NCBI GenBank assembly: GCA_019359615.1
Contig: JAHHHA010000031.1
Span: forward strand, 1-64,000
DNA from: Cyanosarcina radialis HA8281-LM2
Lineage (GTDB): Bacteria > Cyanobacteriota > Cyanobacteriia > Cyanobacteriales > CCAP-1448
Direction of reading: 5' to 3'
Length of the DNA stretch: 64,000 nucleotides
In this document: positions 702 to 6,574 of the stretch, one piece after another
Position numbering within the stretch: the stretch's first letter is position 1
Layout: each line of letters starts with the position of its first letter
Translations under genes and position numbers: made by a program
The notes under the pieces: model-generated
Databases searched by the model: none
What the model was told of the DNA's origin: nothing
Seen by the model: the letters and a program-made list of their open reading frames with translations, nothing else

Positions 702-729
702 TTGACATTTTTGTAGTATGTTGTAGTAT
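702..729 (+). promoter_or_regulatory. Sigma70-like promoter for the first structured RNA
   Basis: A perfect TTGACA lies at 702-707. After a 16-nt spacer comes TAGTAT at 724-729, a 4/6 match to the -10 consensus, with overlapping TATATA and TATAAA at 727-734. Transcription would begin near 736-741, just before the terminal stem of the RNA at 749. No protein gene follows within 390 bases, so the promoter fits a non-coding transcript. Confidence 0.5.
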
Positions 730-740
730 ATAAATATCAA

Positions 741-880
741 GAGGTTTCGACTTCGCGCCCAGACGGACGAAGCTTACATACTAGCTCATTAGGATAGAGC
801 GATCGACAGTCAATCGATAGGTAGCAGGTTCGACTCCTGCGTATAACACCAACAGCTTTTTCAACTTGCGCGAAGTCACG
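741..880 (+). ncRNA. Y RNA-like structured RNA 1 with tRNA-like core
   Basis: The ends form a perfect 10-bp helix, 749-758 (GACTTCGCGC) with 868-877 (GCGCGAAGTC). Inside it are a second helix, 769-774 with 854-859 (GAAGCT with AGCTTT, one G-U pair), then a 4-bp helix, 778-781 with 841-844, and then three arms of a cloverleaf (784-840). The terminal helix is supported by compensatory changes in the neighbouring copy at 956-1048. Established knowledge: bacterial Y RNAs (YrlA type) have a terminal Ro-binding stem and a tRNA-mimicking module, and are encoded beside the Ro60 orthologue Rsr. The next gene here, at 1140, is Ro60-like. Inference: this is a cyanobacterial Y RNA or a relative. CGAAG at 768-772 recalls the CGAAGG of animal Y-RNA stems, but that similarity is short. 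The exact transcript ends are unknown. The alternative is a decayed tRNA gene that happens to be flanked by complementary sequences. Confidence 0.6.
775..851 (+). other. tRNA-like module inside structured RNA 1
   Basis: In tRNA numbering, the D-stem GCTC (784-787) pairs with GAGC (797-800). The anticodon-type stem ATCGA (802-806) pairs with TCGAT (814-818) around the 7-nt loop CAGTCAA. A 5-nt variable region follows. The T-stem GCAGG (824-828) pairs with CCTGC (836-840) around the canonical T-loop TTCGACT. CCA at 849-851 stands where an encoded tRNA tail would be. Against a working tRNA, the three outermost acceptor pairs are broken (T775/C847, A776/A846, C777/A845) and position 33 of the loop is A instead of the near-universal U. 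The loop would give anticodon GTC (Asp), but the body is unlike a bacterial tRNA-Asp. Confidence 0.6.
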
Positions 881-955: not shown

Positions 956-1048
956 TCCACCTCGTGCCCTAACCCAGAGAGCTTACATACTTACCCTTCC
1001 ACGGTAAAACCAAAACCAAAAAGCTTTCTCAACTTGCACGGGCTGATA
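956..1048 (+). ncRNA. Y RNA-like structured RNA 2, short form
   Basis: This second copy shares GCTTACATACT (981-991; also 772-782) and AGCTTTYTCAACTTGC (1022-1037; also 854-869) with the first RNA. The terminal stem 958-967 with 1036-1045 forms nine of ten pairs. Relative to copy 1, three pairs differ by change on both sides, one is a G-U wobble and one is mismatched. The inner helix 976-983 with 1022-1029 has 8 bp. In place of the cloverleaf there is a single hairpin, TTACC (991-995) with GGTAA (1003-1007), with a 7-nt loop. Bacteria with Ro orthologues often encode two Y RNAs side by side. No clear promoter is visible for this copy, so it could be processed from a longer transcript. Confidence 0.5.
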
Positions 1049-1112
1049 TCTTTTATTTGGCGTGGAGACGTGCCATAGTGCGTCTCTACAGCCCAGATTT
1101 GAGACGAGGTGA

Positions 1113-2573
<1,461 letters not shown>

Positions 2574-4223: not shown

Positions 4224-4322
4224 ATGAAAGTTAAATTTGCCATCAACAAAGTGATAAAAATTCAGAACATTTTGAGATTTAAAGGACATCGACATGAAAT
4301 TAGAATTGTTAGGCTGGAATGA
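4224..4322 (+). CDS. Small frame overlapping the rsgA start, possible leader peptide
   Basis: A 32-codon frame beginning [19 protein letters not shown] has one of the best ribosome binding sites in the window (AAGGAGG with near-ideal spacing). It runs 29 bases past the rsgA ATG in another frame. The peptide is basic and lysine-rich. It could couple translation to rsgA or be a chance frame. No family is recognised. Confidence 0.3.
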
Positions 4323-5355
4323 TTTTTTTGCCAATGGTTTTGCTGGCAACCTACAACAAGAATATACAGTTGGTAGAGTTGCTGTAGAGCATAAAAATTC
4401 CTACATTCTCTACTCTGAATATGGAGAGATAACGGCCGAAGTTACGGGCAAACTGCGATATCAAGCTACTGGATACCAAGATTTTCCGGCAGTGGGCGAT
4501 TGGGTGGTAATTCAAGTTAGAGAGGCAGAGAAAAAGGCTACTATTTACGATATCTTGCCCAGAAAAAGTAAATTTTCTCGAAAAATATCGGGATCGACAA
4601 CTGAAGAACAAATCGTAGCGACAAATATCGATACAGTATTTTTAGTCTCAGGACTAGATAAAGATTTTAGCCTCAGAAGGATAGAGCGATATCTGATTCT
4701 AGCTTGGGAAAGTGGAGCGAATCCCGTCATCGTTTTGAATAAAGCAGATTTGGGCGAAGGTATCGATCGCACTGTCTTAGAAGTAGAAGGAATCGCTCCT
4801 GGAGTTCCGATTATTCCCGTAAGCGCGATCGATCGTCAAGGATTAGAGGCTTTAAACGACTATCTGCAACCAGGAAAAACAGTAGCCTTACTCGGTTCGT
4901 CTGGAGTCGGTAAATCAACTATTACTAATCAATTAATAGACACAAAAATTCAGACAACTCAATCGGTGCGTCAAGGAGACAGTCGCGGCAGACATACTAC
5001 TACTCATCGAGAATTAATTTTGCTCCCTTCAGGAGGGTTAATAATCGATACTCCTGGAATGCGAGAAATTCAAATGTGGGGTGGCGATGAAGGTTTACAA
5101 GAAACGTTTACAGATATTGAAACTTTATCTCAGCAATGTCATTTCCGCAATTGTCAGCATCAAAACGAACCTGGTTGCGCCGTGCGACAAGCACTAAATG
5201 AAGGAACGCTCGATCGCCAAAGGTTTAGCAACTATCAAAAATTACAAAAAGAAATCAGTTTCTTAGCGAGAAAGCAAGATAAAAAAGCATCTTTAGCTGA
5301 GAAAGAAAAATGGAAAAAGATTCATAAAGAAATGCGAAATTATAAGAAGAGGTAG
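4294..5355 (+). CDS. rsgA: Ribosome small-subunit GTPase RsgA
   Basis: This is a circularly permuted GTPase that acts late in 30S maturation. In order it shows an N-terminal OB-fold (about 1-95), the permuted G motifs with NKAD (about 149), the P-loop GSSGVGKST (about 202), a DTPGMRE switch, and a C-terminal zinc knuckle [14 protein letters not shown] (about 280-295) followed by a lysine-rich helix. At 353 residues it is the usual length. The start ATG 4294 has AAAGGA nine bases upstream. The preceding small frame overlaps it. The assignment is secure. Confidence 0.95.
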
Positions 5356-5539: not shown

Positions 5540-5581
5540 TCTTGTAATTGCGAATTGCGAATTGAAAATTGCGAATTGAAC

Positions 5582-6574
5582 ATGAGCATATTTAAAGTAG
5601 AAGCAGTCAGAATCGATCGCATTGCCAATCATCCCAATGCTGACAGACTAGAAATAGCCAGCATTGAAGGTATGGCTTATCAAGTTATTACTGCTAAAGG
5701 TAATTTGCAAGTAGGAGATTTAGCATTTTATTTTCCGATCGATAGCGTAATTCCCGACGAACATCTAGATGTATTTGGAATTCGTCCTTACTATTCTAAA
5801 AAACTCAGAGCCGCTAGACTGCGAGGGATTTTTTCAGAAGGTTTGCTGATTTCTGTAGGAGAAAACTTTACTGGCAACGTCGGAGATGACTATACAGAAT
5901 ACTTTGGCGTTACCAAATATGAATATCCTCTACCTCAAAGCATGAGTGGTGAGGCAGAAAGCTCGATCGGACAGCATAAATTCCCTAGTCCAGAGAACTT
6001 AAAACGTTATCGAGATGTAATTCAAGAAGGAGAAGAAGTAATCATCACTGAGAAAATTCATGGGACTAACTTTACCCTCTTAGTAGATGATGATGGCACT
6101 ATTCATGTTGGCAGCCATCACTACTTCTGGAAAAACAACGACAATAACAAAAATCTGGTCTACATCCGCGCTTATAACGAAAATCCTGCGCTACACAAAC
6201 TACCATCAAATACTCAAGTGTTTGGAGAAATTTATGGAGTGCAAGACATTAAGTATGGGTTGAGTAATGGCAACGTAGCGATCGCTCTATTTGGGGTCCG
6301 GCAACACGGTAAGTTTCTCAACTACAGCGAATTTGTAGAGTTTTGCGAGGAGTTTAATTTGCCTAAAGTTCCGACGCTATATATGGGCGCTTACAGTTGG
6401 GAAGTAGTGTCTGGATTTAACAATGCTGACAGCGTTCTTTGTCCTGCGGTAATGATGGAAGGGGTTGTCATCCAACCCTTAGTAGAACGGACGCATCCAG
6501 AAATCGGGCGAGTAGTGTTGAAATCCATTAGCGATCGCTATCTGCTGCGTCAAGAAGGTACCGAACTCCATTAA
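5582..6574 (+). CDS. ATP-dependent RNA ligase, DraRnl/Rnl5 type
   Basis: The 330-residue protein has an N-terminal OB-like domain (about 1-120, beginning MSIFKVEAVRIDRIANHPNA) and a C-terminal nucleotidyltransferase domain. The ligase motifs are in order: motif I TEKIHGTN with nucleophile Lys158, motif III FGEIYG (214-219), motif IV EGVVIQP (293-299) and motif V LKSIS (313-317). The N-terminal OB domain ahead of the ligase core is the arrangement of Deinococcus radiodurans DraRnl (Rnl5), which seals nicked RNA. The start is ATG 5582; the upstream in-frame TTG lies in a GAATTGCGAATTG repeat. Its location 3 kb from the Ro60-like gene suggests an RNA-repair theme, but the two are separated by unrelated genes and are not one operon. 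Confidence 0.85.
   Translation: MSIFKVEAVRIDRIANHPNADRLEIASIEGMAYQVITAKGNLQVGDLAFYFPIDSVIPDEHLDVFGIRPYYSKKLRAARLRGIFSEGLLISVGENFTGNVGDDYTEYFGVTKYEYPLPQSMSGEAESSIGQHKFPSPENLKRYRDVIQEGEEVIITEKIHGTNFTLLVDDDGTIHVGSHHYFWKNNDNNKNLVYIRAYNENPALHKLPSNTQVFGEIYGVQDIKYGLSNGNVAIALFGVRQHGKFLNYSEFVEFCEEFNLPKVPTLYMGAYSWEVVSGFNNADSVLCPAVMMEGVVIQPLVERTHPEIGRVVLKSISDRYLLRQEGTELH

Follow-up and report, generated by a model that had tools for sequence, protein, structure and literature searches.

On a 64,000-nucleotide (nt) stretch from the cyanobacterium Cyanosarcina radialis HA8281-LM2 (positions 1 to 64,000 of contig JAHHHA010000031.1, assembly GCA_019359615.1; hereafter the window), a sequence resembling a transfer RNA (tRNA) with a failed acceptor stem is enclosed in a longer helix and followed by a gene whose product is predicted to fold like Ro60. 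The question raised by this locus is whether the sequence is a tRNA, the remains of one, or an RNA that imitates tRNA. Our answer, to which we give a probability of about 0.72, is that a noncoding RNA of about 130 nt would be made here and would bind the Ro60-like protein as Y RNAs bind Ro60, with its tRNA-like head serving as bait or adaptor. The RNA structure and the genomic coupling come from sequence comparison and the Ro fold from a structure model, and from these we infer transcription, binding, the bait role and regulation. The features concerned are collected in Table 1.

Table 1. Features of the window that bear on the putative Y-RNA-like RNA and its predicted protein partner.
Feature	Position	Strand	Basis
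Sigma-70-like candidate promoter (TTGACA, 16 nt, TAGTAT)	702..729	+	Consensus scan, 10/12 matches
T1 clamp RNA (Y-RNA-like), predicted transcript core	749..877	+	RNA model R1, 123.7 bits at 748-882; covariation in 27 homologues
5' clamp strand: outer helix 749-758, loop 759-765, inner helix 766-774	749..774	+	Sequence, RNAfold, covariation
tRNA-like head: acceptor-like CATAC/GTATA, D, anticodon and T arms	777..845	+	Rfam, ARAGORN, alignment A2
3' clamp strand: inner helix 854-862, conserved AACTT 863-867, outer helix 868-877	854..877	+	Sequence, RNAfold, covariation
Second clamp in the 5' leader of the Ro-like gene, the tRNA head replaced by a small hairpin	957..1047	+	R1, 43.4 bits at 957-1050; clamp scan
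Segments able to compete for the leader 5' strand	1104..1133	+	Read from sequence: 1104-1111 against 958-965; Shine-Dalgarno GAGGTG 1128-1133 against 958-963
Divergent Ro60-like protein: helical repeat N half, vWA domain with DKSGSM	1140..2573	+	Homology, predicted structure
RNA ligase family protein	5555..6574	+	PF09414, E 1.1e-20

The window copy was read against alignment A2, which holds 27 RNAs with the same type of head (T1) chosen to be no more than about 80% alike. The window copy has a D stem (784-787/797-800), an anticodon stem (802-806/814-818) with the 7-nt loop CAGTCAA (807-813) and a T stem (824-828/836-840) with the T loop TTCGACT (829-835), in agreement with an earlier note, made from the window's letters alone, that had called all three arms well formed. 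Its reading of three broken acceptor pairs was borne out, with four of seven pairs formed, as was its longer closing helix, which consists of a perfect 10-bp outer helix (749-758/868-877) and an inner helix (766-774/854-862) lying between the outer helix and the tRNA-like core, the two helices being parted by an internal loop. The bounds given there for the unit, 775-851, were corrected to about 749-877. RNAfold produced -40.9 kcal/mol for 741-882 (z -2.43), a value that 2 of 200 shuffles reached. ARAGORN, which the note had proposed as a check, reported a tRNA-Asp(gtc) at 774-847 despite the broken acceptor pairs, and Rfam gave a tRNA match at 778-844 (40.5 bits); as both report one, the gene finders accept the window copy as a tRNA. 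No Rfam family other than tRNA matched the RNA, and identity with any other known Rfam family was rejected on that ground. The sequence GACGAAG near 766-772 was considered as a Ro motif and rejected, because the relatives compared do not have it. The candidate promoter would begin the RNA just upstream of the outer helix; this is weak evidence, because positions 560-1200 hold two promoter-like sites against 0.9 expected, and no terminator-like site was found in the scan, in which 560-1200 was searched for promoter-like sites.

Conservation was assessed in the best 80 of 94 homologous loci, which together with the window made 81 sources. A scanner for the clamp (the outer and inner helices), trained on A2 and thus on sequences drawn from the scanned loci, found 328 elements in 77 of the 81 sources, all 328 on the strand of the Ro-like gene. 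By word rules, on which the split of these elements into T1, T2 and others depends, 123 of these carry the T1 head, and they lie upstream of the Ro-like gene in 71 sources. Chance hits were absent from 564,578 nt of opposite strand in the 80 loci, from 6-mer-block shuffles of these loci and from 100,542 nt of control loci, and the scan of the whole window returned only 748-879 and 957-1047. In A2, 93.5% of the cells pair, and both sides of a pair changed in 148 cells against 43 in shuffles. Covariation was found in five of the six helices (outer, inner, D, anticodon and T), with both-side changes in eight of the ten pairs of helix 1, where 93.3% of cells are paired; the sixth, the acceptor-like CATAC/GTATG, is kept by sequence with zero both-side changes. 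Short palindromic inserts, GGTACCCT..CGGGAA.., break the T loops of some clamp RNAs (L053:2368-2526, L029:297-460, L034:2266-2414, L044:2476-2639) and are perhaps a small mobile repeat.

None of the 27 aligned sequences makes seven acceptor pairs (15 make six, seven make five and five make fewer), so the complete tRNA gene in relatives that the earlier note would have taken as the mark of a simple pseudogene was not seen. Among 119 T1 homologues with a 5-bp stem and a 7-nt loop, position 33 is T in 114, C in four and A in one, the window's own, and 31 different anticodon triplets occur. The tRNA shape is thus kept and the decoding identity is not, and the tRNA-Asp identity was rejected on the same 31 triplets. 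The A at position 33 (nt 808) that the note had pointed out is present and is peculiar to this copy; the encoded CCA (849-851), embedded in the longer helix, is also present and is no trait of the family, eight of the 27 rows of A2 having one. Because the homologues precede the same gene in so many sources and five of six helices covary, including the three arms whose comparison the note had suggested, its preference for tRNA mimicry over a dying tRNA stands. A tRNA pseudogene was rejected on the covariation, the pattern of U33 and triplets, and the acceptor-pair counts.

The coupling of RNA and protein was also surveyed in 292 cyanobacterial genomes with R1, under stricter filters, with no more than 11 places scored per genome and a cut of 75 bits, set because ordinary tRNAs score 50-odd bits. 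The Ro-like protein (E ≤ 1e-15) was found in 19 genomes, the RNA in 16 and both in 15, so that a single RNA genome fell among the 273 without the protein. The source genome, a 6.5-Mb draft whose contig C27 begins with the window, has a second site on another contig (C2), where one T1, three permuted-tRNA and one H69-type clamp RNA lie between genes for a 66-amino-acid (aa) and a 250-aa protein, and one further clamp element on contig C37.

The gene downstream encodes the proposed partner. ATG 1140 was taken as its start, since alignments with homologues begin at residue 4 of the open reading frame 1131-2573, which opens with GTG. The closest named homologues of the window genes are cyanobacterial (Aphanothece, Trichocoleus), and the locus also occurs in Nostoc and Fischerella strains. 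None of three family members matched Pfam TROVE (PF05731) at E ≤ 10, Pfam gave only sub-threshold vWA matches to the window frame, and vWA_Ro60 was matched below cut-off by two of three members scanned (L067, L049). An AlphaFold2 model built from 27 homologues had a predicted local distance difference test score (pLDDT) of 83.8. With this model, the first 13 Foldseek rows were all Ro60, Rsr or TROVE proteins (E 1.7e-12 to 9.6e-10), and the top ten rows of VIA were chains of the same proteins with Z 18.3-21.9 over 417-443 residues, followed by an isolated vWA domain at Z 13.5. Sequence identity to these chains is 14-18%; a sequence profile search of the PDB gave a best E of 0.18 and a single-sequence search 0.0068. 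A canonical TROVE protein was present in 30 of the 292 genomes and not in the source genome, and R1 scored nothing above 50.1 bits in ten canonical-TROVE loci with short flanks. We take the protein as a separate Ro lineage that the Pfam TROVE model does not match. One contig labelled Acidobacteria (L067) carries a Ro-like protein 71% identical together with clamp RNAs, through transfer or mis-binning.

With the long closing helix, the tRNA-like head, the neighbour of predicted Ro60 fold, the coupling in 71 of 81 sources and the covariation, Y-RNA-type mimicry fits. The window RNA is very probably a Y-RNA-like partner of the divergent Ro protein, with a clamp of its own, CCCUAAC/CAACUUG. The likeness to YrlA that the earlier note had proposed holds in the helix, the head and the neighbour, and stops short of showing the RNA to be YrlA itself.

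The gene's own leader carries the clamp alone, which suggests autoregulation. RNAfold gave -21.4 kcal/mol for this leader clamp (z -2.34), and a short clamp within 260 nt of the start codon was found in 48 of 80 relatives. In 17 diverse leaders an extra outer helix covaries, with both-side changes in 31 cells against 10 in shuffles; one of five measures, further pair types, fell below the shuffles. An anti-Shine-Dalgarno sequence adjoins this extra helix in relatives. Fifty leaders have the motif, and in 44 of these a stretch of 7 nt or more is complementary to the final 22 nt ahead of the start; when the leader tails were shuffled, an average of 5.8% of trials reached the observed length. This form of leader is missing from the window and from its closest relatives, L001 and L002; instead of pairing inside the clamp, the window's 958-965 could pair with 1104-1111, or its 958-963 with the Shine-Dalgarno sequence. 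Control of its own synthesis by the Ro-like protein is the likely sense of the leader clamp, and this copy of the handle predicts feedback control. The leader clamps of L065, L070, L071 and L079 share a conserved insert, GGTGCGTA..GGATACGCTGCAAGCCTGAGACCGATAGCAGGC, in their apical loop (e.g. L065:2792-2943); the leader insert GGTGCGTA..GCAGGC had no Rfam match in 17 loci scanned, and one example compared with 23S ribosomal RNA (rRNA) gave none at E ≤ 0.3.

In relatives the same clamp carries other heads. In the T2 type, which 69 of 370 elements fit (L014:1404-1545, L140:6202-6352 and 67 others), the order is hairpin, T arm, acceptor 3' strand, loop, acceptor 5' strand and D arm. ARAGORN found a tRNA in none of the 69 as they stand and in 36 once rotated, an added tail having no effect; random rotation points gave 4-9 of 69 over five draws, and shuffles none. 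We read T2 elements as circularly permuted tRNA mimics whose acceptor end would be closed by a loop. Two further types resemble 23S rRNA: all 30 R-type heads match helices H69-H71 (e.g. 28 nt at 96%, E 5.7e-9), and all 22 S-type heads match the GTPase-associated centre at 74-84% identity, 20 of them also matching the sarcin-ricin loop at E ≤ 0.05. S-type clamp RNAs with copies of both lie downstream of the Ro-like gene (L014:5791-6003, L022:4290-4502, L177:9198-9407). The lowest E that any of 1,100 shuffled queries reached was 0.002. Because a short 23S-like word served to select the R and S heads, the H69-H71 and sarcin-ricin matches are partly selected and only the GTPase-centre match is fully independent; the reference came from another cyanobacterium, since a 23S search of the source genome found nothing. 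A head type with ACGTCTGAAGCCGTCTTCAGGC had no Rfam match in the 17 loci scanned, and one example gave no 23S match at E ≤ 0.3. Another head type, with ACGTCTGAAGCCGTCTTCAGGCTTAT, was seen at L031:659-771, L033:2603-2719 and L077:2585-2701.

Neighbouring gene families were counted in 82 sources (the 80 loci, the window and locus L140), and counts of distant neighbours are lower bounds because most loci have 3-kb flanks. The recurrent ones were the 250-aa protein (38/82), a 262-aa protein (33/82), an L7/L12 paralogue that passes TIGR00855 (32/82) and a ThiF/E1-like protein with a clear PF00899 match (22/82). A JAB-like neighbour matched JAB at E 1.6e-4, below cut-off. The 66-aa protein, which ends in YG or FG, was found by tblastn in 59 of the 80 loci; its model is beta-grasp-like (pLDDT 89.9) with a weak top Z of 5.5 among mostly ubiquitin-fold chains, and Foldseek gave no match at E ≤ 0.001. 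With PADLOC the ThiF protein alone was matched, by E1-E2 models; at E ≤ 0.01 nothing matched the eight further proteins submitted. Likewise, of the proteins compared with the NCBIfam PRTRC models, ThiF proteins alone were matched (PRTRC_ThiF, below cut-off), the 66-aa and 262-aa proteins having no match. The neighbours likely include a ubiquitin-like/E1/JAB cassette. In the source genome, the L7/L12 search gave one match, taken as ordinary rplL, and neither ThiF nor a clamp RNA was found around its 262-aa homologue. An RNA ligase homologue lies downstream of the Ro-like gene in six of the 82 sources, and locus L155 adds a CCA-type nucleotidyltransferase, DUF4291 and Tpt1.

The Ro-like protein is also encoded by six IMG/VR contigs and the named 595-kb phage record LR756511.1, at 43-49% identity. 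Within the stretches examined of these seven phage loci, the 262-aa gene was present in all seven, the JAB-like gene in six and the ThiF and 66-aa genes in five each; a clamp RNA of at least 62 bits was found in five, two of which score only 63-64 bits. The Ro-like, 262-aa, JAB-like and ThiF genes share one orientation in L158-L161 and L176. On the Kovacikia minuta plasmid NZ_CP083583.1 the following lie in one piece: T2, the 66-aa gene, T2, T1, leader, Ro-like gene, S-type RNA, 262-aa gene and ThiF. In addition, a gene for the ribosome-assembly GTPase RsgA lies downstream of the Ro-like gene in the window (4294-5355) and near it in L149 (745-1800). Some cyanobacteria and one phage contig have ordinary-looking tRNA genes arrayed close to the Ro-like gene and its clamp RNAs (L065:39-666, L071:98-1735, L079:33-824, L157:607-3536).

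In the mechanism that we propose, the RNA would bind the Ro60-like protein encoded some 260 nt downstream, and the double-helical clamp (749-774/854-877) with its internal loop CCCUAAC/CAACUUG would be the protein handle. The head would display a tRNA surface with an anticodon loop and no usable acceptor end, as a bait or adaptor drawing tRNA-recognising proteins to the Ro particle. The sister RNAs would present other surfaces of the translation machine on the same handle, and the RNA-repair and ubiquitin-like genes may act on captured things or on damage. A more tentative extension, possible but with the odds against it, is that the Ro particle is a ribosome-mimicking decoy. The displayed copies would be tRNAs in two topologies, H69-H71, and the GTPase-associated centre with the sarcin-ricin loop, with the L7/L12 paralogue helping, and they would capture attackers or users of the ribosome; the ubiquitin-like/E1/JAB proteins would tag the catch, the RNA ligase, CCA-type nucleotidyltransferase and Tpt1 would mend damage, and huge phages would carry a version. 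If true, this would be bait-guided protein tagging in bacteria and phages.

Several results weigh against a Y-RNA-like partner. ARAGORN and Rfam, both standard gene finders, label the window copy a tRNA, and this copy differs from the rest of its family in position 33 and in an acceptor-like stem weakened to four pairs. The conserved clamp loop appears to differ from the published Ro-binding motif of Y RNAs. No element classed T1 was found in ten of the 81 sources, and four of the 19 protein genomes (G116, G125, G167, G203) lack the RNA at 75 bits or more, the gene matches being partial in the last three.

The principal rival, which we consider unlikely, is an adaptor of the RYPER kind, in which the tRNA-like head would dock PNPase or a different RNase, to which the Ro ring would pass structured RNA, and other heads would dock other maturation or decay enzymes. 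The overall plan of clamp and tRNA-like head is alike, and passages of PMC8394870 and PMC4726728 describe a Y RNA that tethers Rsr to PNPase; the 23S-centre heads, the L7/L12 paralogue and the ThiF and JAB genes are left unexplained by it. It is highly improbable that the clamps are ends of a recombination cassette or mobile element that captures RNA genes, the Ro-like protein having no role: inverted-repeat ends, tandem arrays, variable contents and the occurrence on phage contigs and a plasmid would suit such an element, but the ends covary, all elements share a single orientation, the rRNA and tRNA contents recur, and the elements are tied to one gene. Least probable of all, and hardly to be entertained, is a decaying tRNA gene with a failed acceptor stem, which would account for the two tRNA calls and the three broken pairs and is contradicted by the covarying helices around the core, the conserved rather than decayed acceptor-like sequence and the several copies beside one gene.

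The interest of the putative Ro-binding RNAs lies in one protein handle carrying various heads that reproduce functional centres of both tRNA and 23S rRNA, circularly permuted tRNAs included, so that what each head recruits is open to simple pull-down. If the bait idea is true, Ro particles, RNA repair and bacterial ubiquitin-like tagging would be joined in one system with phage versions for comparison. The literature search found no cyanobacterial Ro/Y system of this type, no Y RNAs with 23S or permuted-tRNA heads and no Ro gene with a ubiquitin-like cassette, within a scope that left out the primary bacterial Y RNA papers and a 2016 RNA-repair survey, which may describe parts.

The tRNA mimicry known from bacterial Y RNAs involves a single kind of head. 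Unlike YrlA, the family described here has several heads per handle, including permuted tRNAs and 23S pieces, a clamp loop CCCUAAC/CAACUUG and an anticodon-like arm in which U33 is kept; its RNA has tRNA as its only Rfam match and, unlike Rsr, its protein is not matched by Pfam TROVE. Like YrlA, the window RNA has a basal stem made from its 5' and 3' ends, a tRNA-like domain and a neighbouring gene of Ro60 type, the fold being predicted. As far as the cited passages describe YrlA/Rsr and the rsr-yrlBA-rtcBA operons, the likeness extends to a basal stem for a Ro-type protein (here a putative binding site), an adjoining Ro-type gene and RNA-repair neighbours, with ThiF- and JAB-type genes in place of rtcBA in the loci seen here. 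PMC8394870 and PMC4726728 describe the tethering of Rsr to PNPase, reported for Deinococcus, and YrlA as a substrate of the tRNA-modifying enzymes DusA and TruB; a passage of PMC7790460 proposes that YrlA, itself not cleaved, may competitively inhibit an anticodon nuclease, and one of PMC7824862 describes TROVE proteins as an RNA-repair platform with a tRNA-like partner. The predicted full-length fold of our protein, a helical ring with a vWA domain, is that of Ro60/Rsr, from which its 14-18% identity and lack of a TROVE match at E ≤ 10 set it apart. Compared with a canonical tRNA, the window RNA has the arms and a T loop of the form TTCNANT and lacks a seven-pair acceptor with a free 3' CCA and a conserved decoding identity. 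In tmRNA and viral tRNA-like structures, too, a tRNA-like domain serves a purpose outside decoding; those imitate the acceptor end, whereas here it joins the handle (T1) or would be closed by a loop (T2). The ThiF/E1-like (PF00899), JAB-like and predicted beta-grasp-like 66-aa proteins resemble bacterial ubiquitin-like cassettes of the PRTRC and E1/E2/JAB type, but PRTRC_ThiF is matched below cut-off and the putative cassette is coupled here to the Ro-like gene and clamp RNAs. Overall, the array with ribosomal heads goes further beyond the known Y RNAs than the window RNA itself.
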